Positions 17,037 through 44,304 of a DNA stretch of 64,000 bases are shown one piece after another; within the stretch, counting starts at the first letter, position 1; every line of letters starts with the position of its first letter. Location: the IMG/VR virus record IMGVR_UViG_3300028859_000011, positions 61,547 to 125,546 of that record; one strand, given 5' to 3'. The position numbers and the translations under genes are program-made. Source of the DNA: a virus. The notes under the pieces are model-generated. The model did no database searches. It saw only the letters and a list, made by a program, of their open reading frames with translations, and was not told the DNA's origin.

Positions 17037-17425
17037 AGGTTAAATTTATTTGCGTCATTTTTTAATTTAAAATAATTTTCAACTCCATCTAATCCAACCA
17101 ACAAAAATTCTTCTAATGATATTAAATTTACTTTTACTGAACTACCGAAATCTATACCTGAAATTTTAATATAATTAGTATTATTTATATCATAATACAA
17201 TGATATCTCCTATGAATATTTTGTTGATATTAAAAATTCTTCATTCCAAGAATATAATTTAACATGTTTTTTTATTTCATTTATTGCGGATTTTTTCTTA
17301 TCAATTGTATTATTTGTACTTTTATCAATAACAAATGTAATATTAGGCTCTGATTCAGGTATCATATCTTTACTATCAATTAATATGTAATTATTTTCAT
17401 TAATGAATTGGTTATATTTTTTCAT
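17033..17425 (-). pseudogene. Capsid-tag family gene with an in-frame amber codon
   Basis: The frame opens at 17425 with MKKYNQFINENN and meets TAG at 17210-17212 after 71 codons. The same frame runs on for 58 more codons to TGA at 17033-17035. The continuation contains NLISLEEFLLVGLDGVENYF and ends KNDANKFNL, matching the ends of its intact paralogues (LIISLDNFLIIGLEGVETLY, KKDANKFNL). Read through, the protein would be about 130 residues with both tags. It is either a fresh nonsense mutation, a leaky stop or a sequence error. No amber-suppressor tRNA is in the window. Confidence 0.65.
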
Positions 17426-17856
17426 ATATTAAATTTATTTGCATCTTTTTTCATGTTGATAATTTCTTCTTTTGCTTTGACAAGTTCTTCAGCTCCTTCA
17501 AATCCAACTTTAAAGAATTCATCTAACGATAATATACATTCCATATAAGTATATCCTGCTCCCCAACGTGGTGTTGTAACTGTTGATATATCTATTCTAC
17601 AACGATTAAAATAATCAGTAATCTCGAATCCTAAAGCCCAAGGAAAGAAAGAATTACTTCCAAAAATATCCTTTTTGTATCTAAGACTCAATAATTCTGA
17701 TTTTCCAAATTCTGAATATTCATCATAATTTACAGATTTTTTGTAAATCATATCAAATAATTTATCAATTTGATCATCTGTGATATTTGTTATATCAACA
17801 GCAAATCTGAATTTATCAGAAATACTTTCATTGATGAATTGTTTATATTTTTTCAT
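17422..17856 (-). CDS. Capsid-tag family protein with both tags, 144 residues
   Basis: N-terminal tag MKKYKQFINES (cut expected after INE) and C-terminal tag KKDANKFNI. The body is paralogous to 16671-17036; the shared parts are the N-terminal strand and helix and the R-W-G-x-G segment. The start overlaps the upstream stop by four bases, as in the whole block. Probable internal head protein; no enzymatic motif seen. Confidence 0.75.
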   Translation of the reverse strand: MKKYKQFINESISDKFRFAVDITNITDDQIDKLFDMIYKKSVNYDEYSEFGKSELLSLRYKKDIFGSNSFFPWALGFEITDYFNRCRIDISTVTTPRWGAGYTYMECILSLDEFFKVGFEGAEELVKAKEEIINMKKDANKFNI

Positions 17857-18293
17857 AGGTTAAATTTATTTGCATCTTTCTTAATTTTATAAAGTGTTTC
17901 AACTCCTTCTAATCCAATTATAAGGAAATTATCTAATGAAATTATAAGGTTATTCTCACCTCTCATCTCATCAGATCTCAGTTTTAAAAAATCTATTGTA
18001 TCTCTTGGTATTGCAGAATTGCCCCAACTTTCATATACTTGAATATACCATACCCAGTAATTATTTTTATCTACTGAGAAACGTTTCCAATCAGTATCAT
18101 TATCTCTAATTAATAAACTTTTTATATTGTGAGTTTCTAATGTCACATATTTTCTAAATTCATCAAATGCTTCTTGTTGTCTTTTTTCATCTGCATCTTC
18201 CAATGATATGAAAAATTTAAAATCCATATTATTGGATGCATAATTTTCTCCATATGCTCTATTTTCGTTAATAAATTCTTTATATTTTTTCAT
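17853..18293 (-). CDS. Capsid-tag family protein with both tags, 146 residues
   Basis: Starts MKKYKEFINENRAYGEN and ends IKKDANKFNL. The C-terminal third (LIISLDNFLIIGLEGVETLY) matches the family consensus. The middle is rich in Asp, Arg and aromatic residues without a known motif. Coupled by four-base overlaps to the genes on both sides. Confidence 0.75.
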   Translation of the reverse strand: MKKYKEFINENRAYGENYASNNMDFKFFISLEDADEKRQQEAFDEFRKYVTLETHNIKSLLIRDNDTDWKRFSVDKNNYWVWYIQVYESWGNSAIPRDTIDFLKLRSDEMRGENNLIISLDNFLIIGLEGVETLYKIKKDANKFNL

Positions 18294-18757
18294 ATATTAA
18301 ATTTTTCAGCTTTTTTTATCATTAGATATTTTTGATATTGTTTTGGATATTCATCTATTATTTTCTTTTTATCATTAAGTTGTAAATATGTCAAAAAATC
18401 ATTACCAAGATTGTCTTTTAGATTCCAATTCGCATTAGATTCTATTAATACTTTTACTATATTAATATTTTCTCTTAATGTAGCATACTGTAATGCGGTT
18501 CTATCATATATATCTTGATAGTTTATATCAGCGCCTTTTTCTATTAAATACTCAACCACGTCTATTCTATTATTATCTGCTGCTAATATTAATGGTGTAT
18601 AATTATTATTTTCTATAATATTTATATCAATTTTTTCAACTTCTATATATTCTTTAACAACTTCTAAATCTCCCCTTCTACAAGCTTCAAATATACTAAT
18701 ATCACTATTGAAAAAGATATCAGAATATCTATCTTCAAATGTTTTTATAAATTTCAT
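18290..18757 (-). CDS. Ankyrin-repeat protein with both tags
   Basis: 155 residues. N-terminal tag MKFIKTFED, then ankyrin repeats from about residue 22: ACRRGDLEVVKEYIE, TPLILAADNNRIDVVEYLIEKGADI and TALQYATLRENINIVKVLIE. It ends KKAEKFNI, the block's C-terminal tag. Ankyrin repeats bind other proteins. With capsid-type tags this could be an effector carried in the virion, which is inference. Confidence 0.8.
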   Translation of the reverse strand: MKFIKTFEDRYSDIFFNSDISIFEACRRGDLEVVKEYIEVEKIDINIIENNNYTPLILAADNNRIDVVEYLIEKGADINYQDIYDRTALQYATLRENINIVKVLIESNANWNLKDNLGNDFLTYLQLNDKKKIIDEYPKQYQKYLMIKKAEKFNI

Positions 18758-19371
18758 ACCGCAGTTTTATTTTTTAATTTTGAAATTGCTTGTTTTATAA
18801 TATCTATTGTTAAGTTATTAATTTCAAATATATTAAAATCTCCTTCAATTTCTGTATTATGAGGATGTTCAATTTTAATTGACACTTTACTTAATGGTTT
18901 ACTCCCAATAACTTTTTGAGAGTCTTCTACTAATATATCAACAAATTTCCATTTATCACTTGATGAATTAACAAATATTATATCATCATATTTGAAACCA
19001 TAATGATCTAACCATTTTTTAGCAGCATTTTTAGATTCTTCAGTTGGTTGTTTAGTTATAATGTTTAATGTATATCCATAAGTTTTCACAAAGTCATATA
19101 TATTATTAACTGTATCAACTGCTCCTTTATATGGTTGAGCTATATCAAACACTTCAGCTTTTTTATTATTGAACCAAGTTTTAGATGATTCACCGTTATA
19201 ATCCATAGTTTCATACCAATGCCAATTTTGATCACTAGTTATTTCTTTATCAGGAAAATATCTTTTATATAGTGTATTATAAGAATTAACAAAATCACAT
19301 ATAGTACCATCAATATCGATTCCTATTGTTACTTTATTAGTAAATGTTTCAAATAATTTTAGATGTTTCAT
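18754..19371 (-). CDS. HAD-type 5'(3')-nucleotidase-like protein with N-terminal tag
   Basis: 205 residues. Tag MKHLKLFET, then HAD motif I GIDIDGTICDF (residues 17-27), motif II NIITKQP and motif III/IV region DKWKFVDILVEDS. The layout and size fit deoxyribonucleotidase-like HAD enzymes that remove phosphate from nucleoside monophosphates. There is no KFN tail. It is the promoter-proximal gene of the 16.1-19.4 kb minus operon, preceded by the TTTATATATAA motif. Confidence 0.8.
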   Translation of the reverse strand: MKHLKLFETFTNKVTIGIDIDGTICDFVNSYNTLYKRYFPDKEITSDQNWHWYETMDYNGESSKTWFNNKKAEVFDIAQPYKGAVDTVNNIYDFVKTYGYTLNIITKQPTEESKNAAKKWLDHYGFKYDDIIFVNSSSDKWKFVDILVEDSQKVIGSKPLSKVSIKIEHPHNTEIEGDFNIFEINNLTIDIIKQAISKLKNKTAV

Positions 19372-19384
19372 ATTTTAATTAAAA

Positions 19385-19409
19385 TTTTATATATTATATA
19401 TAAATTTTT
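19385..19409 (-). promoter_or_regulatory. Candidate late-type promoter motif
   Basis: The minus strand reads AAATTTATATATAATATA, ending 14 bases before the start codon of the nucleotidase-like gene. It matches the motif before other tagged and fibre genes. Confidence 0.45.
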
Positions 19410-19443
19410 AAGCTAAGATTTATTTTAAAAATGAGTTATATTT

Positions 19444-19462
19444 TTTTATATATAATATAATA
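19444..19462 (+). promoter_or_regulatory. Candidate late-type promoter motif
   Basis: TTTTATATATAATATAATA, ending 19 bases before the ATG at 19481. It is divergent from the copy at 19385-19409. Confidence 0.45.
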
Positions 19463-19480
19463 AAAAACAACTTAACTATA

Positions 19481-19675
19481 ATGAAAACAAAACTAGAAAA
19501 CCTATTAAGTTTTACTGATTTTACTGGTAACTATAATTCACAGCAAGCAACTAAAACTAAAAGAACAGACACTGGAGTAGATGTCATAAAAGAAAATAAT
19601 GAAGAGAATATCGAAGATAATATTGAAGATAAAGATTATTCTACTGAATTTGATTCTGAACTTGAAAAAGATTAA
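19481..19675 (+). CDS. Small acidic protein, 64 residues
   Basis: MKTKLENLLSFTDFTGNYNS followed by a Lys/Thr patch and a Glu/Asp-rich tail. The N-terminus loosely recalls the tag of the minus-strand block, but the spacing differs. No function assigned. Confidence 0.6.
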   Translation: MKTKLENLLSFTDFTGNYNSQQATKTKRTDTGVDVIKENNEENIEDNIEDKDYSTEFDSELEKD

Positions 19676-19711
19676 TATATATTTAATTAACAAAAAAATA
19701 TAGAATTGAAA

Positions 19712-19870
19712 TTATTCTATATTTTTATATAATTCACATATTGCTATTCCAGTTATTATATCATATGATATTATTTCTCCTATGATTTCAGTTAAATTTT
19801 CTTCTGATACAACTGTGCCTATAACATCATCCATTATTAATTTTTTTTCAAGTTGAATTTTTATTTCCAT
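19712..19870 (-). CDS. Small unknown protein, 52 residues
   Basis: ATG at 19870 directly follows the stop of the gene at 19871-20062 on the same strand. The product (MEIKIQLEKKLIMDDVIGTV at the start) is acidic with hydrophobic strands. The tight junction supports co-translation. No family recognised. Confidence 0.5.
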   Translation of the reverse strand: MEIKIQLEKKLIMDDVIGTVVSEENLTEIIGEIISYDIITGIAICELYKNIE

Positions 19871-20062
19871 TTAATATTCATTTAATTTTTTAAGTTTTAA
19901 TTTTCTTAATTCTGATTGATCATAATAGAATATAGCAATAGTTATATAATCATCATCTTGAGTTTGAGTGACATTGAATATTTCAATATTACTAGTAGAC
20001 AACCATTCATTTATTTTTTCTTCTAATGTAGTTTTATTAGAATTTATAATCTTACATTTCAT
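19871..20062 (-). CDS. Small protein with basic RKLKLKKLNE tail
   Basis: 63 residues. Ends SELRKLKLKKLNEY, the basic tail found on many small plus-strand proteins at 42-45, 52-53 and 60-61 kb, here on the opposite strand and without an overlapping ATG downstream. That shows the tail is conserved for its own sake. Body unknown. Confidence 0.6.
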   Translation of the reverse strand: MKCKIINSNKTTLEEKINEWLSTSNIEIFNVTQTQDDDYITIAIFYYDQSELRKLKLKKLNEY

Positions 20063-20142
20063 TATTTAAAAATATTTTTATACATTATATATTATAAGTT
20101 ATGCATTCAAATTAAAAATTAACTCATATTTATAATAATAAA

Positions 20143-20160
20143 AAATTATATATAATTAAA
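20143..20160 (+). promoter_or_regulatory. Candidate late-type promoter motif
   Basis: AAATTATATATAATTAAA ending 16 bases before the ATG at 20176. Confidence 0.4.
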
Positions 20161-20175
20161 ATATAAAAAATATCA

Positions 20176-20439
20176 ATGAGTAAAAATAATTTAATTTTAA
20201 TTTCTAAACCTAATACCACCAAATATTACATTAATTTTTTAAAGACTACTGGAAAAATAGCATTAGAAATTGATAATAATGAAATTTATATGTTATCAGA
20301 AGATAATAATTTTTTAATAATGGAGAATGGCTCATATGAATTAAATGAAATTTATAATAATGAAATTTATATGTTATCAGAAGATAATAATTTTTTAATA
20401 ATGGAGAATGGCTCATATGAATTAAAAGAAATTTTATAA
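20176..20439 (+). CDS. Unknown protein with an internal 27-residue duplication
   Basis: 87 residues. The last two thirds are two nearly identical 27-residue units (NNEIYMLSEDNNFLIMENGS then YEL(N/K)EI), produced by an in-frame 81-bp tandem duplication. It precedes the fibre genes and may be a small structural or assembly protein; no motif supports a firmer call. Confidence 0.65.
   Translation: MSKNNLILISKPNTTKYYINFLKTTGKIALEIDNNEIYMLSEDNNFLIMENGSYELNEIYNNEIYMLSEDNNFLIMENGSYELKEIL
20281..20432 (+). repeat. 81-bp in-frame tandem duplication
   Basis: GAAATTTATATG recurs at 20281 and 20362, and the following bases are almost identical, giving two copies with period 81. The similarity implies a recent duplication. 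Confidence 0.8.
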
Positions 20440-20463
20440 TTGATAAAATTTATTTTAATTATA

Positions 20464-20484
20464 AAATTTATATATAATATAAAA
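20464..20484 (+). promoter_or_regulatory. Candidate late-type promoter motif
   Basis: AAATTTATATATAATATAAA ending 14 bases before the ATG at 20498, the first gene of the fibre operon. Confidence 0.45.
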
Positions 20485-20497
20485 TAATTAACAAAAT

Positions 20498-20938
20498 ATG
20501 AATAGCGAAAAACAATCAAAATTATGGATAAATAATAACTGGGTATATTTCAAAATAAAAATTGGTACGTACACTAATATTATCACATTTTTAGATGATA
20601 ATAATATATCTTTTATTAAATATAATTATATTGATTTTACTAAAATTCCAAGTGTTATATATGGTTACGGTAAGAGTACAAATTTATTAGAATATTTATC
20701 TAATAATAATAACAATGGAAATTTAATAATATCATTTTTAAATTATTTTTTAAATAGTTTAAAATTTAGTTATATTGATGGATCAGCAATAAGAATATTA
20801 ATGGTGAATAATATAGATTGGAAAATTTCAAATGTAATAGTTATAAAAAATAATTGGAAGTATTTTACAGTTGATACATCATTTTTTACCGCAGATAATA
20901 GTATAATTACAGCAGATAAAACAATTATTACAATATAA
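20498..20938 (+). CDS. Unknown structural-module protein, 146 residues
   Basis: Asn/Ile-rich and beta-rich, with a Thr/Ala-rich end (TVDTSFFTADNSIITADKTI) of irregular repeats like those in fibre shafts. It stands directly before the fibre genes and is probably part of the same operon. No family recognised. Confidence 0.65.
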   Translation: MNSEKQSKLWINNNWVYFKIKIGTYTNIITFLDDNNISFIKYNYIDFTKIPSVIYGYGKSTNLLEYLSNNNNNGNLIISFLNYFLNSLKFSYIDGSAIRILMVNNIDWKISNVIVIKNNWKYFTVDTSFFTADNSIITADKTIITI

Positions 20939-20962
20939 TTATTTCATAAAAAATAAAAAAAT

Positions 20963-23992
<3,030 letters not shown>

Positions 23993-23996
23993 AAAT

Positions 23997-24026
23997 AAAA
24001 GAGTAGATTTTAAATCTACTCTTTTT
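23997..24026. terminator. Bidirectional terminator
   Basis: A 12-bp stem (AAAAGAGTAGAT, 23997-24008, with 24014-24025) with T tracts on both strands, between convergent genes ending at 23992 (+) and 24025 (-). Confidence 0.85.
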
Positions 24027-24612
24027 ACATATTAAATTTTTTAGAATCTCTATATAAAGGATAATATTTAGTATTAATTTCATCATATTCTTTCCAACTC
24101 GTTTGAAATATATATCCAAAATTTTCTACATATTTATTATTTTTAGCCATATCTATAAATAGTTTGTGATAATTTATACATCTATTAATAAAAAATTCCC
24201 CTTTCCCTATAATAGAGCTAATTAAATCTAAATAACCATCATCTGATGGCATAAAGGCTGAATATTTATTATCTAGCCAAGTAGGTTTAAAATATAAATA
24301 AAGTTCTTCTATTAACTTATCATATTCATTTTTAAAATTCATAAGAGTATTATATTCAAAATTTTTGAATACTCTTATTTTCAATTTTAATTCTTCTTCT
24401 TTATCTTTATTTTCAAATTCATCCTTAGTTTTAATTATTTTATTCCAATCAACTACACGTATAAAATTCCAAAAATCATCACTATAATTATTAACATTAG
24501 GCTTATTAATTCTAATAATATCACCGTTACTAGTTATAGTTATCAAATTACCATTTTTATCATAATGCTCATTGTACTCTATATTTTCAAATATTTTAAA
24601 AATTGTTATCAT
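24025..24612 (-). CDS. Capsid-tag family protein with both tags, 195 residues
   Basis: N-terminal tag MITIFKIFENIEYN (cut expected after IFE) and C-terminal tag YRDSKKFNM. The middle is charged and helical with many aromatic residues and no recognisable motif. It is the last gene of the 24.0-27.4 kb minus operon; its stop lies in the shared terminator. Confidence 0.7.
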   Translation of the reverse strand: MITIFKIFENIEYNEHYDKNGNLITITSNGDIIRINKPNVNNYSDDFWNFIRVVDWNKIIKTKDEFENKDKEEELKLKIRVFKNFEYNTLMNFKNEYDKLIEELYLYFKPTWLDNKYSAFMPSDDGYLDLISSIIGKGEFFINRCINYHKLFIDMAKNNKYVENFGYIFQTSWKEYDEINTKYYPLYRDSKKFNM

Positions 24613-24616
24613 ATTA

Positions 24617-25771
24617 TTACATATTAAATTTATTTGTATCTACGATAAACATATATTGTTTAAATTCTTTTTTAATTTCTGAATCTAATATGAAATTAGA
24701 ATTTAGTTTTTTTAACGCATCAGCTATCAAATCACCTTTTTCTTCTTCTGTACTATCATCATAACCGTTTTCTTTTACATATTCTTTTATATATCTTTTT
24801 TGAAATTCATATTCATCTGAAATATCATCATTATGCTCATCTTTATCTTCAAATATTTCAAAAAGTAACAATGTAAGATTATCTGAATCATTAAAATTAT
24901 CCATTAAATAATGTTGTATTTCTATGCTATTTGCAATTTGATATTTTATCCAATCAGATTTAGTATCATCATTTTCAAATTTTTTATAATTTTTTACAAG
25001 TTTATCATCATCTATATATGAACTAAAATTTTGATAAAATTTTTTAGGAGTCATATCTTTAATAAGTTCTGATAAATTATCTACACAATATATTTCTACT
25101 AATAGTTCGGTAAAATATCTACCTTCATATCTATCTCTGATCATTTCATCAAAAAAATCTACTTCATCAGTATATTCTTGTATTACATATTTTAATTGAT
25201 CTGAATCTAAATCATCTATCATATCAGAATCATATTCCACATCATTACTTTTTGCAATAATAGTATCATAACTAATTTCATCTCCATCTTCAACCAAAAT
25301 AAAAAAATTATTAGGTATTTCATATTCCTCAGTAGAATCACCTTCAGTTATTACAATTTTTCGTATATCATCATTTTCTATAATAGAAACTATTCCATCA
25401 TATTCAGTTTTTATAATTTTTTCACTATCATTATTTTCACAATAATATTCAATTATTTTATTCTCCATTTCTATAGTTAAATGATTTTCTATATAATCTT
25501 TAAATTCTTGATCATCAAAATCATCCATTGATGAATTATTAATTTCATTTTTTATAGTATCTTCAACATATTTATCACTATCAAAAACTCCAGATATTAT
25601 ATTTGGATCATTTGTTATTATATCAATAATATCACTCTCATTATAATTAGTCAAATAGTGTTCATCATAATAATTTGATATATAATCATTATCTAAAAAT
25701 TCATTTACTAATTCATATTTTGAGCTATCTGCACTCTCAAATAATTTAAATTTTTTAAAACTTACTATCAT
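24617..25771 (-). CDS. Large acidic capsid-tag protein with both tags, 384 residues
   Basis: Starts MIVSFKKFKLFESADSS (cut after LFE) and ends IVDTNKFNM. Strikingly rich in Asp and Glu (for example DEHNDDISDEYEF), so the mature protein is strongly acidic. T4 internal proteins are mostly basic, so an acidic one would be unusual and could be a DNA mimic or counter-charge. No enzyme motif seen. Confidence 0.7.
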   Translation of the reverse strand: MIVSFKKFKLFESADSSKYELVNEFLDNDYISNYYDEHYLTNYNESDIIDIITNDPNIISGVFDSDKYVEDTIKNEINNSSMDDFDDQEFKDYIENHLTIEMENKIIEYYCENNDSEKIIKTEYDGIVSIIENDDIRKIVITEGDSTEEYEIPNNFFILVEDGDEISYDTIIAKSNDVEYDSDMIDDLDSDQLKYVIQEYTDEVDFFDEMIRDRYEGRYFTELLVEIYCVDNLSELIKDMTPKKFYQNFSSYIDDDKLVKNYKKFENDDTKSDWIKYQIANSIEIQHYLMDNFNDSDNLTLLLFEIFEDKDEHNDDISDEYEFQKRYIKEYVKENGYDDSTEEEKGDLIADALKKLNSNFILDSEIKKEFKQYMFIVDTNKFNM

Positions 25772-25895
25772 ATTTTTTATTTTGTTATATCTTTAATTTT
25801 TATTATGATTAAATGCTATTTTAATAATATCTATTGATATTAATTATAATAGATGATGAAACTATTCATTATATAAATACAACTCTTAAAACTCA

Positions 25896-26720
25896 TTATA
25901 TGTTGAATTTACTGGTATCATTAATAATACTCCATTCATTATAGTATTCATCTGATAATAAATTAGAAAAATCATCTATTGTTTTATATAATTCATTTTT
26001 AAATATAAAGAATTTTTTCAATTCTTCAATTTTATATTCTCTATCTGCAATAAATTTTTTATTTTTATTTTTATCAATATTTTGTAAAAAAATATTAGAG
26101 TCAAATAAATATTCATTAAATATTATACTATATTTGAATAATTTTGTTCTTAAATTATAAAATTGATGAATAGATATAAAATTAGGTATTTTACCAGTAT
26201 ATACATTTTTAATATGTGCTGAATTAAAATTGATATTATCTATTTCAAAATAACCATAAGTATCTTTTGTAAAATTATTAGTTTTTCTAATGAGTTTATC
26301 AAAAACATCTACATAACGTGATTTTATTTTTGCACTATTAAAATATTTTGATATATTTTTATCTTTACTAATATATAACATAATATTATATAATTCTGAT
26401 GAATACATTTTATTTTGAATATCAGTTATTTCTGAATCATATTCTTTTAATATTCTATCATTTTCTTCTTCTTTAAATTTTTCACGTCCTATTTTTTTAA
26501 TATGATTTATTCGTTCTTTCTCTATAATATCTAATTTTTTTCTATATTCAGGATCAAATTCTTCATATTTTTGTTTAGCAATATTAAGTCCTTTGTTACC
26601 AATTAAATTTAAAAATTTAGTATATAACTCTGAATTCTCTTTTTTTACCTTATCTAAAAACTTAACATTTTCTTTATCTTGTAGTATATCAAATACTTTA
26701 AATTCAAATATTTTTTTCAT
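25896..26720 (-). CDS. Capsid-tag family protein with both tags, 274 residues
   Basis: Starts MKKIFEFKVFDILQDKEN and ends INDTSKFNI. Lys-rich and predominantly helical (a charged stretch around RKKLDIIEKERINHIKKIG suggests coiled coil). Function unknown. 124 bases separate it from the next gene of the operon, with no clear signal in that gap. Confidence 0.7.
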   Translation of the reverse strand: MKKIFEFKVFDILQDKENVKFLDKVKKENSELYTKFLNLIGNKGLNIAKQKYEEFDPEYRKKLDIIEKERINHIKKIGREKFKEEENDRILKEYDSEITDIQNKMYSSELYNIMLYISKDKNISKYFNSAKIKSRYVDVFDKLIRKTNNFTKDTYGYFEIDNINFNSAHIKNVYTGKIPNFISIHQFYNLRTKLFKYSIIFNEYLFDSNIFLQNIDKNKNKKFIADREYKIEELKKFFIFKNELYKTIDDFSNLLSDEYYNEWSIINDTSKFNI

Positions 26721-26723
26721 TTA

Positions 26724-27062
26724 TTATAAATTAAAATTTTTAGTGTCATTAGTAAATTCTGGAACATTAAAATATTCAAGAAAAATTGGAAATCTATTAT
26801 AATTAACATTAAACTCTTGTAGATTTTCATTATCATCGAACATAAGAACTTTATGAATACATTCAATCGGCAAATAATTTAAGACATATTTATTTATTGC
26901 TGCTTCTGTATCACCATAATATCCAGAAACCTTATAATATACCCCTTTTTTAAAATTTATAACTTCATTAGTTGATTTTTTATGATAATTTTTTATGCAT
27001 ATTACATTATCATCTATTCTCCTCAAATCTGGATTATTATAATTTTCAAATATAGTTATCAT
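26724..27062 (-). CDS. Capsid-tag family protein with both tags, 112 residues
   Basis: Starts MITIFENYNNPDLRR (cut after IFE) and ends TNDTKNFNL. The segment IKNYHKKSTNEVINFKKGVY looks beta-rich. It overlaps the upstream gene by four bases. No known motif. Confidence 0.7.
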   Translation of the reverse strand: MITIFENYNNPDLRRIDDNVICIKNYHKKSTNEVINFKKGVYYKVSGYYGDTEAAINKYVLNYLPIECIHKVLMFDDNENLQEFNVNYNRFPIFLEYFNVPEFTNDTKNFNL

Positions 27063-27400
27063 AAATTAAATTTATTTGTATCTAATATTAAAAGATATTC
27101 TTTTTTTGCATCTTTAATATTATCATATGATGATTTAACATAAATTTCATAAATATATAATATATCAGTTAATTTACATTCAAAACTTAAATCATCTGGA
27201 TTCCACATATAAATTTCAAGATTAACACTATAATATGAATTAACACTAATAAATTTAGCAAGATAATAATCTTCTTTATATTTAAATATTACATATTTAT
27301 CATAATATTTTTTATAGTCCAATGCTTTTTTAGCCATCTTTTCATTACATTTTTTTATTGAATCTTCAATAGTATTTTCAAAATGTTTAATATACTTCAT
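27059..27400 (-). CDS. Capsid-tag family protein with both tags, 113 residues
   Basis: Starts MKYIKHFENTIEDS (cut after HFE) and ends ILDTNKFNL. Tyr- and Lys-rich beta-type body. It is the first gene of the 24.0-27.4 kb operon and is preceded at the usual distance by the TTTATATATAA-type motif. Confidence 0.7.
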   Translation of the reverse strand: MKYIKHFENTIEDSIKKCNEKMAKKALDYKKYYDKYVIFKYKEDYYLAKFISVNSYYSVNLEIYMWNPDDLSFECKLTDILYIYEIYVKSSYDNIKDAKKEYLLILDTNKFNL

Positions 27401-27414
27401 TTAATATAAATATA

Positions 27415-27433
27415 ATTTATAATATATATAAAA
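27415..27433 (-). promoter_or_regulatory. Candidate late-type promoter motif
   Basis: The minus strand reads TTTTATATATATTATAAAT, ending 15 bases before the start codon at 27400. Confidence 0.45.
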
Positions 27434-27532
27434 ATAAAATAACGCAAACTTTTATAATTATTATTTATATAATAAATAAAAAAATATGCAAACAGTTTGT
27501 TTTTAATTCATCAGATAAAACTACTATTTTAT

Positions 27533-27667
27533 ATGAAGGTTAGATTAGGTTATTATGAAATAATGCAAAAAAAAGAAATATCTAATTATAGCAATGGAAA
27601 AAATGTTACGTTTTCAGTGGCCAGATTACCTATTTCTAATACCAATATGATAATAAAAAATGAATAA
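27533..27667 (+). CDS. Possible short gene or gene fragment, 44 residues
   Basis: The only sign of coding in the 27401-27698 gap. The frame starts MKVRLGYYEIMQKKEISNYS. A matching upstream piece lies in another frame (KQFVFNSSDKTTILYEG, from about 27487), so this may be the end of a frameshifted gene. There is no promoter or neighbour on this strand. The rest of the gap is AT-rich sequence without visible structure apart from the promoter motif at 27415. Confidence 0.3.
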   Translation: MKVRLGYYEIMQKKEISNYSNGKNVTFSVARLPISNTNMIIKNE

Positions 27668-27698
27668 ATATTATATAAATATTATATAAATATTATAT

Positions 27699-28283
27699 TT
27701 ATAAATTAAAAATATTTGCATCTCTTTTCATTTCCCATTCTTCTTTATATTGCGGAAATCTATCTGTTATATATTTTTCAATATTATCAATAAACTCATT
27801 TTTATGATCATTAATTTTTTTATATTTCATAATATAATCATAAAAATTTTCATCGTAATTATTTTTTTTATCAAGATTAAATCCATGACTTAAAAATTTA
27901 TTTAATATTATAATAAATGTTCCTGAATCATAAATATATTGTACATAATATACTAATGCTGAATTATCATTAATATCTCTAATATTAACATCTGCTTTTG
28001 CATTTAATAATTTATTAATAACTAATAATGTAGACGCCATCATTAATGCTGTCATTTTGTGCTTATCAGTAGCATTAACATCAGCATTTCCTTCTATTAA
28101 TGCATCAACAACAAATGGAAATTTAATAGCGTGCATTAATGCTGTTCTACCATCAGAATCTTTCATATTAATTTCAACATTTTCTTTTATCGCTTGCTTT
28201 ACCGCATTTGTATTTCCTCTTTTTGCTGCTGATATAAAAGGATGCTCTTTTACTGATTTTTCAAATAATTTTAAATATTTCAT
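27699..28283 (-). CDS. Ankyrin-repeat protein with both tags, 194 residues
   Basis: Tag MKYLKLFEKSVKE, then ankyrin repeats: FISAAKRGNTNAVKQAIKE, GRTALMHAIKFPFVVDALIE, TALMMASTLLVINKLLNAKA. It ends KRDANIFNL. Same design as the ankyrin protein at 18290, from a different operon. Likely packaged with the virion and able to bind a host or phage protein; partner unknown. Confidence 0.8.
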   Translation of the reverse strand: MKYLKLFEKSVKEHPFISAAKRGNTNAVKQAIKENVEINMKDSDGRTALMHAIKFPFVVDALIEGNADVNATDKHKMTALMMASTLLVINKLLNAKADVNIRDINDNSALVYYVQYIYDSGTFIIILNKFLSHGFNLDKKNNYDENFYDYIMKYKKINDHKNEFIDNIEKYITDRFPQYKEEWEMKRDANIFNL

Positions 28284-28336: not shown

Positions 28337-28362
28337 AAAAATCCTGATTTCTCAGGATTTTT
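28337..28362 (-). terminator. Terminator of the VWA/MoxR operon
   Basis: An 11-bp stem (28337-28347 with 28352-28362) just beyond the stop at 28367, with a T tract on the minus strand. Confidence 0.8.
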
Positions 28363-28366
28363 ATTT

Positions 28367-29863
28367 TTATTTGTCTATAAACAATTTATTATCAGGTGGC
28401 CATTGTATATCTGGAGCTTCTTGCGCTTCAGTAATTACCCATAATATTTTATCATAATATTTAGGAATTTGATATTTAAATTTATTTGGTGGAACACCAT
28501 GAGAATCTGTAAAATATATAACAAACGAAGGAACTGTTCCTTTTTTAATCATATTATTTTCAATCCATTGAAACGGCGGAATAAAACTTGTTCCTCCTCC
28601 ACCTATTGCTTTAAAATGTTTAGCAAGAATTTCTTTAAATTTACCTTCATTCATAGAATCTCCACTCTTTGTTTTAAGATCTATTTTTTCTATTCCTTTT
28701 ATATCAGCATCACACCATATAATTATAGCTTCTTCTATTTTTTTTGAACCAAAAATACCATAAATTTCTGCTGCAAATTTACCAAGTGTATCATCTCCAA
28801 TTGAGCCAGATGTATCAACACATAATACAATTTTTCTAAATCCACTATCCTTAGGAAATTTTAATCCTGGTAAATACATTGGATCATCTTGACCTATAAA
28901 TCTCTTATTAAAATAACCATATTTAGGATTACTAGCAAAGCATTTATTCATAAATTTAATTAATGTCGCTTTCCAATTAACTTTTGGTTTACCAATTTTA
29001 TTAAACCATCTATTCAATGTTGCTGAACCAGTTCCTTGATTTTTACTTTTAGCATCATTTAATATCTTACCCCATTCTCTAGCTAAATCTGTAACATCTT
29101 CTACTTTTGCTAATTCATCATTACCTTCAAATAATGTTGGTCCTTTTTTATCAGTTAAACTACCTGGCTCTCTTAAATCATTTGTTCCTGGTATTGAACC
29201 TCCTCCATCTCCTCCTGGACCTCCTCCATCTCCTCCTGGACCTCCTTCATCTCCTCCTGGACCTCCTCCTGGACCTCCTCCATCTCCTCCTGGACCTCCT
29301 CCATCTCCTCCTTTTTTAGGTTTTTTAGGATTATTTTTTTCTTCTGTTTCAAGAATCACATAAATTTGTTCAGCACTCATACCTCTATATTTTTCATCTA
29401 ATAAAATATTTTGTGGTACACTCAATATATTAACAACAGATGCTGCACCTTCAGGCTTTTCTTTACTCATATCAGCTATTTGAATATTAATAGCATAATC
29501 AGTTGCTTGATTCCACAATGAATGATCTCTATCTCCTTGTCTTAAAAAGTGAAGATTTGCGTTATGCATAACTTCATGTATCAGCACAAATGCTACTTCC
29601 TCAGTATTTCTTAATACTTCATTTACAAATTTAGGACTATATAAAATACTTTTACCATCAGTTGCCATAGTGTCAATTCCACTATTTGGAGATGCTTCTG
29701 CGATAGTCAATTGAAAAAATAAATCAGCAAAGAAATTATAATACGACATAGTAGATGCTAATGCTGCTCTAACTCTACCTTTTGCTAATTTATTTAAATT
29801 TGGATCATTTAAATCTTCATTTGTACTTAATAAATTAAATATGTTAAATTTTTTTATCATCAT
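28367..29863 (-). CDS. Metallopeptidase-VWA protein (DUF2201/COG3864-like)
   Basis: Start chosen at the MM pair (29863/29860) because MIKKFNIFNLLSTNE then gives the block's N-terminal tag; a longer frame reaches back to 29914 inside the upstream gene. The N-terminal half has the zinc-peptidase helix LIHEVMHNANLH (HExxH). A Gly/Pro/Asp linker follows (repeats of GGDGGGPGG), then a VWA domain with MIDAS motif CVDTSGSIGDD. Such proteins pair with MoxR AAA+ ATPases, and two lie directly upstream. In bacteria the pair remodels or activates partner proteins. No KFN tail. Confidence 0.85.
   Translation of the reverse strand: MMIKKFNIFNLLSTNEDLNDPNLNKLAKGRVRAALASTMSYYNFFADLFFQLTIAEASPNSGIDTMATDGKSILYSPKFVNEVLRNTEEVAFVLIHEVMHNANLHFLRQGDRDHSLWNQATDYAINIQIADMSKEKPEGAASVVNILSVPQNILLDEKYRGMSAEQIYVILETEEKNNPKKPKKGGDGGGPGGDGGGPGGGPGGDEGGPGGDGGGPGGDGGGSIPGTNDLREPGSLTDKKGPTLFEGNDELAKVEDVTDLAREWGKILNDAKSKNQGTGSATLNRWFNKIGKPKVNWKATLIKFMNKCFASNPKYGYFNKRFIGQDDPMYLPGLKFPKDSGFRKIVLCVDTSGSIGDDTLGKFAAEIYGIFGSKKIEEAIIIWCDADIKGIEKIDLKTKSGDSMNEGKFKEILAKHFKAIGGGGTSFIPPFQWIENNMIKKGTVPSFVIYFTDSHGVPPNKFKYQIPKYYDKILWVITEAQEAPDIQWPPDNKLFIDK
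29195..29315 (-). repeat. Gly-rich linker minisatellite
   Basis: Imperfect repeats of CTCCTCCTGGACCTCCTCCA and close variants encode the Gly/Pro/Asp linker between the peptidase and VWA domains. Confidence 0.75.
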
Positions 29864-29874
29864 TTTTATTTTTT

Positions 29875-31413
29875 TTATTTTCCTACCATAGTTTTTTGGA
29901 ATACAGAATGCCATTTTTTAGCAAATTCTGTCCATATAGGTAAATATTCTTTTTTAATATATGGATGAGCTTTTAAGAAATAAGATCCTATTGTTACAAT
30001 TGCCTCATTTTCTTTACCCATAGTAGCGAAATCATATACATTTTTTACTTCATCAGCAGTCAAATGTTTACCTTGTTTAAAAGTTGCAATAGCAATTGAA
30101 CAAGCTCTAATTTGGTCTTGTCTTGTAGGCCATTTTACTTTTTTAGATTCTGCATTACCATCATATATATCTTGAATATCTTTTTCACTAAAGAACTCTT
30201 GTAATTTCATATAATTAATAAAATCTAATGTAGGTTCTAATCCTACATATTTAGTGTATATTTTTTGAATTTGAGGATATGTTAATTTTTTAGACCAATC
30301 TTCACCTCTATAATTATATTCATCTTGTGAAGCCATTTCCCAAGATCTTGGAGATGCCCATACTGGACTACCAGATTCTAGATCTAATCTATGAAAGTAA
30401 TTAGGATGATATTGTAAATATGAAATAAGAAATGGATTAATATCTTTTTTAGTTAATGCCCATTTAACCCAATCATCAACAGTTGGAGTATAATTAACAT
30501 GAGCAAAACGATTCCACAAAATTGGATCATCAGTCAAATCAGTTGTATTTATATCATCTTTTCTATTACCTGCTGCAATAATAATCCATCTTGGAGGTAA
30601 ATCATAATCACCATGTTTACCACTTAATGCTAATGCTAATGATGCACTTAATACCATTTGTGGTGCTCTATTCATTTCATCAAAAAACATAATACCACCT
30701 TTTCCATTACCATCACTTGTAGGAAATATTGCTGGTAATTTAGAAACAGTTTGATTATTTTCAATTTTAGGAACTCCTCTAAAGTCAGTAGGTTCAATTT
30801 GGGATAAATGCCATTCTTGAACAACAATATCTAATTCTTTAGCTACCTGATGTAAAATTTCAGTTTTACCAATACCAGGAGCGCCCCAAATAAACAATGC
30901 ATGTGTTTTTTTTCTGGCAAATTCAGAGGTTCTTTCATAATTATCTTGTTCATGCTTAGTTGCTCTATGTAAATTCATATTATAAACTCTTTTGATTCTA
31001 TCTTTAAGCTCATCAACATTTATATTTCTCATTACTTCTTCATCACCACTTGGATATTTTAAAGTTACAAATGCTTCATCTACAGGCATTTCTTTTTTTA
31101 TTTTTTCTCCTTTTTCATCAAATCTTGAACGTATTTCATTTTCTATATCTTCTGCTGTAGGAACTTTAACACCAGATTTCATTCTATCAAAATAATTATT
31201 TGGAATAATCACTTCAACTACATCTCTAGTTTTACCATCTTCATCTACATATGTTGGAATTTCACCTTTTTCTTTTAAATATTTAGCATAATATAACCAT
31301 GAATTTTTACCAAATTTTTTATTGAAAAAATTAGATACCACATTCCATGCGTTTTTTAACACATTTTCATTTAATTTATATTCTTCAGAATAACTATCAT
31401 ATTTCTTTATCAT
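29875..31413 (-). CDS. MoxR-family AAA+ ATPase with N-terminal tag
   Basis: 512 residues. Tag MIKKYDSYSEEYKLNE (cut expected after LNE). A domain with FFNKKFGKNSWLYYAKYLKE is shared with the next paralogue. The AAA+ core has Walker A WGAPGIGKTE, Walker B GGIMFFDEMNRAP and sensor region IIIAAGNR, ending in a helical lid. MoxR ATPases act as chaperones for VWA proteins; the adjacent VWA/peptidase gene is the obvious partner. No KFN tail. Confidence 0.9.
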   Translation of the reverse strand: MIKKYDSYSEEYKLNENVLKNAWNVVSNFFNKKFGKNSWLYYAKYLKEKGEIPTYVDEDGKTRDVVEVIIPNNYFDRMKSGVKVPTAEDIENEIRSRFDEKGEKIKKEMPVDEAFVTLKYPSGDEEVMRNINVDELKDRIKRVYNMNLHRATKHEQDNYERTSEFARKKTHALFIWGAPGIGKTEILHQVAKELDIVVQEWHLSQIEPTDFRGVPKIENNQTVSKLPAIFPTSDGNGKGGIMFFDEMNRAPQMVLSASLALALSGKHGDYDLPPRWIIIAAGNRKDDINTTDLTDDPILWNRFAHVNYTPTVDDWVKWALTKKDINPFLISYLQYHPNYFHRLDLESGSPVWASPRSWEMASQDEYNYRGEDWSKKLTYPQIQKIYTKYVGLEPTLDFINYMKLQEFFSEKDIQDIYDGNAESKKVKWPTRQDQIRACSIAIATFKQGKHLTADEVKNVYDFATMGKENEAIVTIGSYFLKAHPYIKKEYLPIWTEFAKKWHSVFQKTMVGK

Positions 31414-31459
31414 TTTATTTTTTTTATTTTTTTATAATTTATTATTTTAGGTTTTTTAA

Positions 31460-32878
31460 TTATTCTGGTGTTCCCTTCTTTTTTCTTCTTTCTTCATCTT
31501 TCTTTCTTTCTTCTTCACGTTCTTTCTCATCTATTTTTTGCAACCAGTTAACAAATGCGGTAGCACTTGCATATCCAACAAAATCTTCATATATATTTTT
31601 TACTTCATTATATGGTAATTTATTTTTCCAATCAAATCCTCTTTCAAAATAATCTTCTTCTGATGCCATCTCCCAAGTTCTTGGAGATGTCCAATTTGGA
31701 GCTTGACTAACAGTATTTAATCTATGATAATATTCTGGATTTTCAGTAATAAATTGTATAAGTTTAGGATTAACTGATTTTATATTTTTTGCATATCCAA
31801 TCCAATCAGAAGGTCTTGGAGAAAAATTAATATGCTGAAATCTATTCCATAAAATTTTATCATCAGTTAAATCACCTGTACTTAAATCTGATCCTCTATT
31901 ACCTGCAGCAATAACTATCCAATATTGAGGTAATTCATAAGTACCATGTTTACCACTTAATGCTAATGATAATGATGCATCAAGTACCATTTGTGGTGCT
32001 CTATTCATTTCATCAAAAAACATAATACCACCTTTTCCATTTTTACCATTACTGGTAGGAAAAATTGATGGTAATTTCCAAACTGTTCTTTCATCTTTTG
32101 AATCATCAGATCCAATAATATTTTCAATTTTAGGAATTCCTCTAAAGTCAGTAGGCTCAATTTGTGATAAATGCCATTCTATTACGGCAATATCTAATTC
32201 TTTAGCTACCTGATGTAAAATTTCAGTTTTTCCAATTCCAGGTGCACCCCAAATAAATATCGCATTAGTTTTTTTTCTACCAAATTCATTAGATTTTTCT
32301 CCTTCTTCTTGATGCCTACCTGCTCTAAGAGCATTCATATTATAAAGTCTTTTTACTTCTTCTTTTAATTCAGCAACATCTTCATTAACTACATTTGGAT
32401 CTGGATGATCTAAACTTACAAAATCTTGATTATCATCAAGTAAACTTTCATTCAAATATATTTTTGTTAAACTTTCTTTAACTTTTTCTAATTCTTCTAT
32501 TTCATTATCAACTTTATTTTCTTCTTGATTTTCATCATCTTTAAGTCCAGGAATTTCATTTTCTTTTTCATCTTCAACTGTTTCATTATCAACAGGTTCA
32601 ACATCAGATTGAATTTGAGAATCTTCAATTTCTTTATCAGTTGGTATATCTGATATGTTAGCATATGTTGGAGGACATATTAATTCAATACCTTTTGGTA
32701 GTTTTCCTTTTTTCTGTAAATATAATGCATAATATATCCAAGCGTGTTTTCCAAAATGATTTTTGAAAAAAGAAATTACTTTATTAAAAATATCAGAAAA
32801 GACATTTTCATTGATTTTTGCACTTTCATTTGCTCTATATTCTTTAGAAAAATGATCATAATTTTTTAATGTTTTCAT
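31460..32878 (-). CDS. MoxR-family AAA+ ATPase paralogue with N-terminal tag
   Basis: 472 residues. Starts MKTLKNYDHFSKEYRANES with a likely cut after KINE, then the same HFGKHAWIYYALYLQKKG domain as its neighbour, an acidic insert (DNETVEDEKENEIPGLKDDE), Walker A WGAPGIGKTE, Walker B GGIMFFDEMNRAP and sensor VIAAGNR. The two ATPases may form a mixed ring. The C-terminus is highly charged. It is first in the operon, after the TTTATATATAA motif. Confidence 0.9.
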   Translation of the reverse strand: MKTLKNYDHFSKEYRANESAKINENVFSDIFNKVISFFKNHFGKHAWIYYALYLQKKGKLPKGIELICPPTYANISDIPTDKEIEDSQIQSDVEPVDNETVEDEKENEIPGLKDDENQEENKVDNEIEELEKVKESLTKIYLNESLLDDNQDFVSLDHPDPNVVNEDVAELKEEVKRLYNMNALRAGRHQEEGEKSNEFGRKKTNAIFIWGAPGIGKTEILHQVAKELDIAVIEWHLSQIEPTDFRGIPKIENIIGSDDSKDERTVWKLPSIFPTSNGKNGKGGIMFFDEMNRAPQMVLDASLSLALSGKHGTYELPQYWIVIAAGNRGSDLSTGDLTDDKILWNRFQHINFSPRPSDWIGYAKNIKSVNPKLIQFITENPEYYHRLNTVSQAPNWTSPRTWEMASEEDYFERGFDWKNKLPYNEVKNIYEDFVGYASATAFVNWLQKIDEKEREEERKKDEERRKKKGTPE

Positions 32879-32939: not shown

Positions 32940-33599
32940 TTATATATTATTTTGTTTGCTCTCTGATGAATATTTTGCTTGTCTCCATCTAATATCATTC
33001 ATTGTACCCCAACCTGTTTTATATGAACCTCCATAAATTTTAGGATTAGTACCTGCAGCTATTTTTACGGCTTTTTCTTTGGCATTCATTAAATGCCACA
33101 ATTTTTCTCTTTCTGGTACATTTTCTGATCCTGTATAATCTTCAATAGAAACTAAATCTTCTACATCAAAATCTACATCAGAATTATAATAATCATCAAT
33201 ATCATTACTAAATTTAGTTTTTACTATTTCACCATCTTTTTTAACTACTTCGATTCTCCAATCATTATTAAAAATTTTAATATTTAATTCATTTTCAATT
33301 TTTCTAATTATTGATTTAAATAATAATATATTTGGATAAATCCAAAAAGATATAATTTTACTTTTAGTCCATAATCTTCCAGGATAACTCGGATTCTCTA
33401 CATCATAACCTGCATTAAAATGTGAATCTTGATAATCACCAAAATAAACATTTATTACATTTGTGTGATTATCATTAACTTCACAATAAAAAGGTTTAGA
33501 ATCTTTATCATCCATATCACATACTTTTTTACCATTCTCATCACGTATATAACTCGGATTTTCTTTTATTAATTTAAATTCTTTAAATTCTTTAATCAT
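32940..33599 (-). CDS. Unknown protein with N-terminal tag, 219 residues
   Basis: Starts MIKEFKEFKLIKENPSY (cut expected after IKE). Mixed alpha/beta body with several Trp residues (PGRLWTKSKIISFWIYPN) and an end GTMNDIRWRQAKYSSESKQ. No motif recognised. By its tag it belongs with the proposed internal head proteins; it lacks the KFN tail. Confidence 0.7.
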   Translation of the reverse strand: MIKEFKEFKLIKENPSYIRDENGKKVCDMDDKDSKPFYCEVNDNHTNVINVYFGDYQDSHFNAGYDVENPSYPGRLWTKSKIISFWIYPNILLFKSIIRKIENELNIKIFNNDWRIEVVKKDGEIVKTKFSNDIDDYYNSDVDFDVEDLVSIEDYTGSENVPEREKLWHLMNAKEKAVKIAAGTNPKIYGGSYKTGWGTMNDIRWRQAKYSSESKQNNI

Positions 33600-42393: not shown

Positions 42394-42581
42394 ATTTGAT
42401 TAAATTAGCATATGCTCTCATTAATGATGCAGCATTTAAAAATACATCTGTAAATAATATTATACATACTATACAACGATCTTGTATTTATGAAAAAATG
42501 AATTTTGAAGAATTAAAAATATATTTAAATATAGTTCAACGAAAGAGAAAATTGATAGAAATTAATAAAAAATATGGATAG
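42381..42581 (+). CDS. Small helical protein with basic tail, 66 residues
   Basis: Ends IVQRKRKLIEINKKYG, a member of the group of small proteins with R-K-x-K-L tails. It overlaps the genes on both sides by 8-13 bases. Function unknown. Confidence 0.6.
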   Translation: MDKIDLIKLAYALINDAAFKNTSVNNIIHTIQRSCIYEKMNFEELKIYLNIVQRKRKLIEINKKYG

Positions 42582-42777
42582 AAAAATATTAAAATTATTA
42601 GCAAGTAGAATAATAAAAGAGTTCTTTGTTAAAGATAATTTAAATGCTCTTGAAGTTTTATATAAATTACAAACATTTAATAATTTTAGTGAATCTGATT
42701 TTTCTGAATTAAAAAAACAAATAATTATAGAAGAAAGAAAATATAAATTAATAAAATTAAATGAAACCGAATATTGA
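42574..42777 (+). CDS. Small protein of a tandem family, 67 residues
   Basis: First of three tandem paralogues. Shared parts are a helical start, F-N-N-(F/Y) in the middle and the end EERKYKLIKLNETEY. The DNA encoding the tail overlaps the next ATG. Confidence 0.6.
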   Translation: MDRKILKLLASRIIKEFFVKDNLNALEVLYKLQTFNNFSESDFSELKKQIIIEERKYKLIKLNETEY

Positions 42778-42958
42778 TATCCCAGGACTAGCTAAATTTA
42801 TTGCTAAAGAAATGTTTGTTTTTAATAAAACAGATTCATTTGATGATTTGAAAAAATTAGGTGCGTTTAATAATTATGATATTAGTAAATTAGAAAAAGA
42901 AATAATTATAGAATTACGAAAATATAAATTAATAAAATTAAATGAAACCGAATATTGA
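42761..42958 (+). CDS. Small protein of a tandem family, 65 residues
   Basis: MKPNIDIPGLAKFIAKEMFV, nearly identical to the start of the next gene; the two starts are 181 bases apart, so this is a recent duplication. It ends ELRKYKLIKLNETEY. Confidence 0.65.
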   Translation: MKPNIDIPGLAKFIAKEMFVFNKTDSFDDLKKLGAFNNYDISKLEKEIIIELRKYKLIKLNETEY

Positions 42959-43151
42959 TATTCCAGGACTAGCTAAATTTATTTCTAAAGAAATTTTTGT
43001 TTTTAATAAAATAAATGTAATTGATGAATTTGATGAATTAGGTACATTTAATAACTTTTGTTCTGATGATTGGATTGAACTATGCAAACTAATAAGTTTA
43101 GAAATAAGAAAATATAAATTAATAAAATTAAATAATGAAAACGAATTATAA
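42942..43151 (+). CDS. Small protein of a tandem family, 69 residues
   Basis: MKPNIDIPGLAKFISKEIFV at the start and EIRKYKLIKLNNENEL at the end. Third intact member of the tandem array. An ATG in its tail (43136) opens the short frame MKTNYKFFLKGEFRLKD, which looks like the start of a fourth, broken copy. Confidence 0.65.
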   Translation: MKPNIDIPGLAKFISKEIFVFNKINVIDEFDELGTFNNFCSDDWIELCKLISLEIRKYKLIKLNNENEL

Positions 43152-43163
43152 ATTTTTCCTTAA

Positions 43164-43610
43164 AGGAGAATTCAGATTAAAAGATTAATAAAAAAAATAA
43201 TAAGTTTAATAAAAACTTCAAATAATAAAAAATTTATAATAGTTTTAGGACAGAATTCTATATCTGATGTTCCAACTGATATTCCAACTGATGTTCCAAC
43301 TGATGTTCCAACTGATGTTCCAACTGATGTTCCAACTGATGATATACCTCACGATATACCTATACCTGAATCTACGTCTGAAAATAATATTAAGGAAATT
43401 GATAGATTAGCGTATAATTTTTATGTTCAAGATTATATGACAATATATCGATATCATGATGATAAAGGTCCAGCGACTATGATAAATATTATAAATCATT
43501 ATAAACAAAGAGGAAATTTATATCATCAACATGATTCAATAGATGAATATTATGAGCAAGCAAATCAAATTTTAAGAAAACAAAAATTAGAAAAATTAAA
43601 TAATTTATGA
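43164..43610 (+). pseudogene. DVPT-repeat gene without a normal start codon
   Basis: The frame is open for 148 codons but has no ATG, GTG or TTG before the repeats; ATT codons at 43170 and 43176 follow an AAAGGAG sequence, rare here. It encodes a hydrophobic-basic start (RLIKKIISLIK), then six 12-bp units giving DVPT repeats, then a domain of the IDDIAYxLY family (EIDRLAYNFY) and the tail ILRKQKLEKLNNL. The start may be a non-ATG codon, or the gene may have lost its 5' end by a frameshift from the ATG at 43136. Confidence 0.5.
43266..43337 (+). repeat. 12-bp tandem repeat (6 units) encoding DVPT
   Basis: Six units of GATGTTCCAACT, the second with one change (GATATT). In frame with the surrounding coding sequence. 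Likely to vary in copy number. Confidence 0.9.
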
Positions 43611-43819
43611 TAGAGCATAATATTTATGATGATGAGTTAGATAATTGTGCATATGCATGTTATAAAAAATATTATAAAAAAAGAAATCATGATAGTACTT
43701 CTATAATAGATAAAGATTTCTTTATACGTCATAGAAAAATTTTATCTGAATATTATAAACAAGCAGAAAAAATTTTAAGAAAAAAGAAATTAGAAAAAAT
43801 AATAAATCATGTTCAATAA
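43607..43819 (+). CDS. IDDIAYxLY-family small protein, 70 residues
   Basis: Layout of the family: a short N-terminal acidic motif (DDELDNCAYACYKKYY), a variable middle and the helical tail EYYKQAEKILRKKKLEKI. Its start overlaps the previous stop. No known function; the family occurs in at least three loci of this window. Confidence 0.6.
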   Translation: MIEHNIYDDELDNCAYACYKKYYKKRNHDSTSIIDKDFFIRHRKILSEYYKQAEKILRKKKLEKIINHVQ

Positions 43820-44006
43820 TAAAATTGAAAATATAGATGATATTGCATATAAATTATATGCAAAAAAGAATTTCATATGTGGTAATATTACACGTAGTCT
43901 TTCTAAAATTATTTTTGAAATTAGTTATGATAATGATTCTGAATATTATAAAAAAGCAGAAATTATTATAAAAAATAAAAAACTTATTATAAGAAAAAAA
44001 AATTAG
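43809..44006 (+). pseudogene. IDDIAYxLY-family copy, likely frameshifted near its end
   Basis: Starts MFNNKIENIDDIAYKLY, identical at DNA level to the start of the gene at 44294. The frame ends at TAG 44004-44006 after RKKN. One more A in the nine-A run near 43992-44001 would restore the usual tail RKKKLEKINRIEKINNI. A homopolymer indel, natural or artefactual, is the simplest reading. Confidence 0.5.
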
Positions 44007-44040
44007 AAAAAATTAATAGAATAGAAAAAATTAATAATAT

Positions 44041-44304
44041 ATGTTCAAATTTAAGAAGAAAAAATGAAAATATAGATGATATTGCATATAAATTATATAT
44101 ATCTGATATCAAAGAAATAACTGGAGATAATTATTCTATATATTTAGATATGAATTATAAGTTGCTCAGTATAAACCTATTTGTAGCTTATCGTCATGAT
44201 GTATTATTTGGTGATTATTATTATAAAAAACAGAAAATATTATAAGAAAAAATAAATTAGAAAAAATTAATAGAATAGAAAAAATAATAAATCATGTTCA
44301 ATAA
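44041..44304 (+). pseudogene. Broken IDDIAYxLY-family copy
   Basis: Carries ENIDDIAYKLYISDIKEITG and a family-like middle, but no start codon in that frame (the ATG at 44041 ends after eight codons). The tail is out of frame: restoring one G before CAGAAAATATT would give the family ending AENIIRKNKLEKINR. It fills the stretch between 44007 and 44293. Confidence 0.55.

Follow-up and report, generated by a model that had tools for sequence, protein, structure and literature searches.

N-terminal tags resembling the T4 capsid-targeting sequence on a MoxR-VWA metallopeptidase operon in a large-phage lineage

We found an operon in a viral genome fragment that encodes two MoxR AAA+ ATPases and a VWA protein with a putative metallopeptidase domain, each beginning with a short N-terminal tag similar to the capsid-targeting sequence of phage T4. 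We consider the chances about even that this tagged trio is prohead-targeted cargo that is cleaved by the head protease, retained in the head, and most likely ejected to act in the host. The evidence is comparative, drawing on the catalytic motifs, a lineage-specific tag, a site in the capsid protein, and the T4-type head genes of two tagged phages, and from it we infer targeting, cleavage, packaging, and ejection.

Operon structure and protein families

The window is the whole 64,000-base stretch of DNA that was analysed. It runs from base 61547 to base 125546 of a virus record that totals 125,546 bases and is itself a fragment. Four genes follow one another along the direction of transcription on the minus strand. 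A 219-aa tagged protein (32940..33599; tag MIKEFKEFKLIKEN) precedes MoxR-1, an AAA+ ATPase of 472 aa (31460..32878; tag MKTLKNYDHFSKEYRANESAKINE, residues 1 to about 24, with the predicted cut before NV), which is followed by MoxR-2, an AAA+ ATPase of 512 aa (29875..31413; tag MIKKYDSYSEEYKLNE, residues 1-16, codons 31366..31413, predicted cut likewise before NV). The last gene encodes a DUF2201 putative metallopeptidase and VWA protein of 497 aa (28367..29860; tag MIKKFNIFNLLSTNE, predicted cut before D, with the codons of residues 1-16 at 29813..29860). This ORF had been called at 28367-29914, where it begins MAFCIPKN. Since its counterpart in the relative G001 begins MIKKFNAFNFLSINED, the start is most likely the ATG at 29860, and the tag therefore falls at the N-terminus of the VWA protein. 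With the corrected start, the intergenic gaps are 61, 46, and 14 bases, and a stem-loop of 11 pairs with a T tail on each strand, a candidate terminator at the operon end (28337..28362), lies just 3′ of the VWA gene, so that the arrangement fits a single operon. A scan of the sequence for sigma-70 promoters yielded no more sites than a scan of shuffled sequence. The position of the 219-aa tagged gene is kept in the two nearest relatives, G001 and L123.

Both ATPases belong to AAA/AAA_5 (Pfam), and MoxR-1 and MoxR-2 each have an intact Walker A (GAPGIGKT), Walker B (FFDEMN), sensor 1 (AAGN), and SPRxW motif. They have the AAA+ core, the Walker A/B and sensor motifs, and the VWA partner gene that mark MoxR AAA+ proteins, with ATPase activity and a hexamer predicted. 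The VWA protein matches DUF2201_N (PF13203; 5.4e-35) and DUF2201 (PF09967; 4e-13), and its HEVMH and MIDAS motifs (DTSGS, GGTS, FTD) are intact; HExxH, the motif of the putative peptidase, is conserved in 7/7 aligned VWA proteins. The three genes are intact and real and lie in operon order, which bears out the sequence-only reading of this DNA as an operon of two MoxR AAA+ ATPases and an HExxH/VWA protein. PHROG annotates the VWA protein as "HNH endonuclease", which we rejected, given its Pfam assignment to DUF2201 and its intact HExxH and MIDAS motifs. phrog_1314 and many GenBank phage records label the DUF2201 metallopeptidase/VWA protein "HNH endonuclease" or "homing endonuclease", probably a propagated mislabel. 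A resemblance to the defence ATPase IetA (PADLOC) was also set aside, as the matches are confined to the ATP site and weak (E about 1e-4; 20 bits, where the cut-off is 510).

A single-chain model of MoxR-2 has a reasonable AAA+ core, with residues 1-16 disordered (pLDDT below 50) and followed by a helix. Its best structural matches in the PDB are NorQ, at the top, and NorQ-NorD VWA complexes. The model of the VWA protein is poor (pLDDT 60, pTM 0.38), and Foldseek recovers only its VWA domain; searching the PDB by sequence returned no more than generic AAA+ matches and nothing useful for the VWA protein. We propose that the trio would constitute a MoxR-VWA remodelling machine whose fold is nearest to that of NorQ/NorD.

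The tag is kept across divergent lineages

The tag takes the form aromatic-x-x-aromatic followed by an acidic site, and this form occurs in the MoxR protein, the VWA protein, or both at L120, L123, L124, L125, L126, L128, L129/LR756500, and L265. A profile search of viral contigs identified full-length MoxR relatives, 30-46% identical and sharing this N-terminal region, in L123, L124, L125, L126, L128, and LR756500/L129; L265 was found to be tagged later, among the homologue controls. At least seven lineages retain the tag, although they have diverged deeply and are only about 30-80% identical to the window. In MoxR-2 numbering, N15-E16 is invariant in 11/11 aligned MoxR proteins and Y5 is nearly invariant; the LR756500 MoxR has a degenerate tag. 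The VWA proteins of tagged operons carry their own versions of the tag (MIKKYNNFINES, MLTKFNNYETLIALNE, and MKYIKSYENFIFEN).

The sequence-only reading had proposed a comparison with MoxR-VWA operons of related phages, and this comparison favours the tag in its absence elsewhere as well as in its retention. The tag is lacking in 78/79 MoxR homologues of other viral contigs, the one exception being L265, where the VWA partner of the tagged MoxR is also tagged. Among 86 VWA homologues from other viral contigs, only that of L265 and one doubtful protein are tagged, and in the cultured T4-like cyanophage S-TIM5 both MoxR and VWA are present and both are untagged. A search for a cultured isolate carrying a tagged MoxR-VWA pair found none. 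In trees of the catalytic cores built without the tag columns, the 11 tagged MoxR proteins form one clade against 45 others (SH-aLRT 100), as do the 7 tagged VWA proteins against 41 (SH-aLRT 99). MoxR-1 and MoxR-2 are sister paralogues on the tree, so the second ATPase arose in the window's lineage after its split from L123. The other tagged loci seen have a single MoxR each, and because the ATPase gene is duplicated only in the window's lineage, a mixed two-MoxR hexamer would be possible only there.

Constraint on the tag differs between the two families. Between the window and G001, which are about 80-82% identical, the MoxR tags have 1 amino-acid change in 34 codons, against about 6 expected from the remainder of the genes; over the whole MoxR genes, 18-19% of amino acids are changed. 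The MoxR-2 tag codons have 0 amino-acid changes and 2 synonymous changes relative to the 82%-identical relative. Conservation is weaker in the VWA tag than in that of MoxR, with 4/16 codons changed, as in the remainder of the VWA gene. These comparisons use tag patterns that were written after the sequences had been seen, homologues that are not independent, and contigs that are fragments. Neither pattern serves for judging single proteins, since the strict T4 one is too narrow and the loose one, which matches 1.5-4% of internal Met sites, is too permissive, so the case for the tag rests on conservation and controls.

G001 (235 kb) also encodes a second pair of a MoxR and a VWA-metallopeptidase, at L015:4210-5838 (+) and L015:8354-9625 (+), which lies near genes for a tail sheath, a ribonucleotide reductase, and a DnaB-like helicase. 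The second MoxR is untagged. The N-terminus of the second VWA protein, MTDFYKFVIPDQMHE (MTDFYKFVIPD), is ambiguous; because it matches the loose pattern, this VWA protein is not a clean untagged control, and the second MoxR is.

Capsid-type character of the tag

The T4 internal proteins IPI, IPII, and IPIII and the Alt protein carry a capsid-targeting sequence (CTS) that is cut by gp21. Ten residues of the T4 CTS suffice, with residues 4 and 7 for targeting and residues 8 and 10 governing processing; gp21 cleaves after [LI]-x-E, and foreign proteins fused to the CTS are packaged and delivered (PMC9026906). The tagged MoxR proteins show the same layout of spaced aromatics near the N-terminus and then [LI]-x-E, with a larger gap before the site. 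The VWA protein of L124 (MIKKYNNFINE) and the MoxR of L265 (YNFDEFVNE) fit the T4 CTS almost exactly, the VWA protein of the window fits it loosely (TNE), and short tags of this genome such as MKKYKQFINE are close to it. Strict matches to the T4 pattern at N-termini exceed expectation in G000 (6 vs 1.9), G001 (13 vs 2.0), and LR756500 (26 vs 3.3).

Two of the tagged phages have T4-type head genes. LR756500 (462 kb) encodes a T4-type major head protein, a head maturation protease, and a portal, with the tagged MoxR-VWA pair located between these T4-type head genes and the tail sheath. The 159-kb L124 contig carries a protease and a capsid protein alongside its tagged pair. A gp21-type prohead protease in the same phage as the tag was thus found in LR756500 and the L124 contig and not in the window's fragment. 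Searches of the window's contig and four relatives, all of them fragments, recovered no terminase, T4 capsid protein, or protease; several of these searches had no positive control, so the result does not establish that the genes are absent.

The capsid genes themselves provide a further connection. At non-redundant loci of relatives of the LR756500/L124-type capsid protein, the next gene downstream is tagged in 18/37 cases, compared with 14/568 other genes (Fisher 3.8e-16). The T4-like capsid proteins (L037-L116) have a conserved LNE[NS][VI] near residue 45 (about 40-50), which on sequence grounds is the probable cleavage site of their propeptide. The MoxR tag ends in the same form (LNEN, LNES, LNEG, INEN, MNEG), and such an LNE-type site occurs within the first 40 residues of only 5/269 G001 proteins, two of which are the MoxRs. 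Conservation of the tag, its T4-CTS logic, the site in common with the capsid protein, the tagged genes next to capsid genes, and the T4-type prohead proteases of two tagged phages all support the earlier description of the tag as capsid-type, and we consider it likely that it serves as a head-targeting propeptide. The tagged genes about 115 bases downstream of the capsid gene (L057-L112) mostly encode proteins of 320-590 aa, which have a second shared element after the tag (NENIGAALGSP[IV]KF, DEGITDIKGI.SNPIKY).

Two explanations would dissociate the tag from the capsid. The tag could be a localisation or partner-binding signal common to many non-virion proteins, directing them for example to a membrane or a replication compartment. 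Dozens of small tagged proteins per genome, such as those behind the 26 strict matches in LR756500, would make a long list for virion cargo, but the T4-CTS pattern, the cleavage site common with the capsid protein, and the enrichment on capsid-adjacent genes make such a signal improbable. It is more doubtful still, to the point of being very hard to credit, that there is no signal at all and that these are ordinary Lys-rich amphipathic starts, alike by chance or through functionless inheritance. The permissiveness of the loose pattern and the common ancestry of the homologues would allow for this; however, the tag is kept through deep divergence, the MoxR tags have changed far less than expected, and a chance N-terminus is rejected on the homologue control, in which 0/78 untagged-lineage MoxR proteins match.

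Possible sites of action

In the mechanism that we propose, each subunit of the MoxR-VWA machine would bear at its N-terminus a propeptide of T4 capsid-targeting type that directs it to the head, and this propeptide would bind the prohead core during head assembly. A T4-type prohead protease would cut after the conserved Glu, at [LIM]-N-E in MoxR and, in most VWA proteins, at [ILT]-x-E, and the subunits so released would remain within the head. They would most likely exit together with the DNA. In the new host, which offers both ATP and metal, they would assemble into a machine that remodels or degrades target proteins. The subunits would need to be ejected unfolded, because a folded MoxR hexamer would not fit through the tail tube. 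Loading into the head is probable because the tag is T4-like and kept in at least seven lineages, and we put the presence of MoxR-VWA proteins in mature virions at slightly better than an even chance. T4, which packages and delivers foreign proteins fused to its CTS, makes ejection plausible, and the earlier suggestion of packaging followed by delivery into the host would be plausible too.

Where the machine would mainly act can be judged only in graded terms. Main action in the newly infected host is a serious possibility that falls somewhat short of even, and main action in the prohead is a real but lesser one. The tags may bring MoxR-VWA into or onto the prohead in order to remodel scaffold or to process structural proteins with the metallopeptidase domain, with little or none of it needed in the mature virion or the next host. 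Such an assembly role, which we hold to be possible though on the unlikely side, agrees with the proposal by Iyer et al. 2021 (PMC7824862) of virion assembly and peptidolytic processing for jumbo-phage MoxR/VWA-metallopeptidase pairs, with the part of p618-p892 in tail development of the archaeal virus ATV, where p618 is a virion protein (PMC4124505), and with the location of the LR756500 pair between tail sheath and head genes; the tag fits it as well as it fits ejected cargo. However, many phages use untagged versions of the pair without any capsid tag. In addition, the untagged second MoxR of G001, which has its own VWA partner and is encoded close to tail and replication genes, could serve assembly, and the window's operon lies in a small variable tagged block and not among head genes; both observations tilt the balance slightly to ejection. 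The full scenario remains tentative, namely that a T4-headed large-phage lineage packages the whole MoxR-VWA-metallopeptidase machine via cleavable tags on every subunit and injects it to work at the start of infection, with two different ATPase subunits in the window's lineage.

Relation to known systems

Like the trio, the T4 internal proteins and Alt have a short N-terminal propeptide with two spaced aromatics and then [LI]-x-E on cargo unrelated in sequence, and a T4-type protease is present in phages related to the window's. Unlike them, the trio would be a multi-subunit AAA+ machine whose packaging is predicted from sequence, and the aromatic pair of the MoxR tag lies further from the cut site. 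The MoxR and VWA-metallopeptidase pairs of jumbo phages (Iyer et al. 2021 group 2.2), N4-like phages, and cyanophages consist of the same two families in adjacent genes with intact motifs (phrog_1297, phrog_1314/DUF2201), but those checked are without the tag and without the long N-terminal region of the tagged MoxRs. ATV likewise has a viral MoxR-VWA pair, p618 and p892, with the MoxR in the virion, of which it is a major component (PMC4124505). It differs in being archaeal, in its extracellular tail growth, and in having no known T4-type tag or protease, and its VWA partner p892 is without a peptidase domain according to Iyer et al. (PMC7824862). NorQ/NorD and RavA/ViaA also combine a MoxR AAA+ protein with a VWA partner; they are cellular metallo-enzyme or respiratory chaperones with neither tag nor metallopeptidase domain. 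An AAA-family ATPase was detected by MS in the Staphylococcus jumbo phage DC4 from one peptide, with the authors cautioning about co-purification (PMC10638138), and we do not count it as a virion precedent.

The sequence-only reading had considered that delivery of such a machine by a phage, if it is packaged, would be new. MoxR with a VWA-metallopeptidase in jumbo phages (PMC7824862) and a virion MoxR in ATV (PMC4124505) are both published, so the components are not new, and what appears to be new is the combination of the MoxR-VWA pair with T4-type capsid tags. We found no published lineage with such a tag on every MoxR-VWA subunit in the literature searched. Known T4-type cargo comprises small inhibitors, modifying enzymes, and, in giant phages, RNA polymerases, and a packaged AAA+ remodelling machine would, if true, add a new class to the activities that phages inject. 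Were the machine active in the prohead alone, a tag that indicates where it acts would still help to settle the role of phage MoxR-VWA. The tag also offers a rule by which the packaged proteins of uncultured huge phages can be predicted from sequence.

The neighbouring tagged block

The sequence-only reading had all three proteins start with the N-terminal tag of the gene block. This holds once the VWA start is placed at 29860, with the qualification that the operon proteins bear a longer subtype of it. The tagged operon sits among the small variable tagged genes of the window, away from head genes, but the trio is not simply one more set of block members, because it lacks the C-terminal tag (xKFN[ILM]) borne by many of its tagged neighbours.

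The C-terminal tag consists of the last residues of the protein, [KRNH][FY]N[ILMV], and occurs on about 21 proteins in G000 (0.17 expected) and on 43 in G001; in LR756500 (L027-L036) it takes the form of ADDFGF(F)DN-like ends on 15 proteins (0.39 expected). Proteins bearing it are encoded in the window on the minus strand within 16124-28283 (e.g. 17422-17856, 18290-18757, and 27059-27400) and in G001 (L014-L026). Proteins with this tag tend to have the N-terminal tag as well (odds ratio 26-35, p below 1e-8), and since the codons of the C-terminal tag vary synonymously, selection on it acts at the protein level. In L126, protein ends read NANKMGLM or DANKLGL. The gene directly after the VWA gene (27699-28283, minus strand) encodes an ankyrin-repeat protein with the N-terminal tag MKYLKLFEK and a C-terminal NIFNL that resembles the C-terminal tag. 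Another repeated C-terminal motif, L[IR]RKxKLxKLN, is found on many small proteins at 42574-44762 and 52169-53533 (+) of the window and elsewhere.
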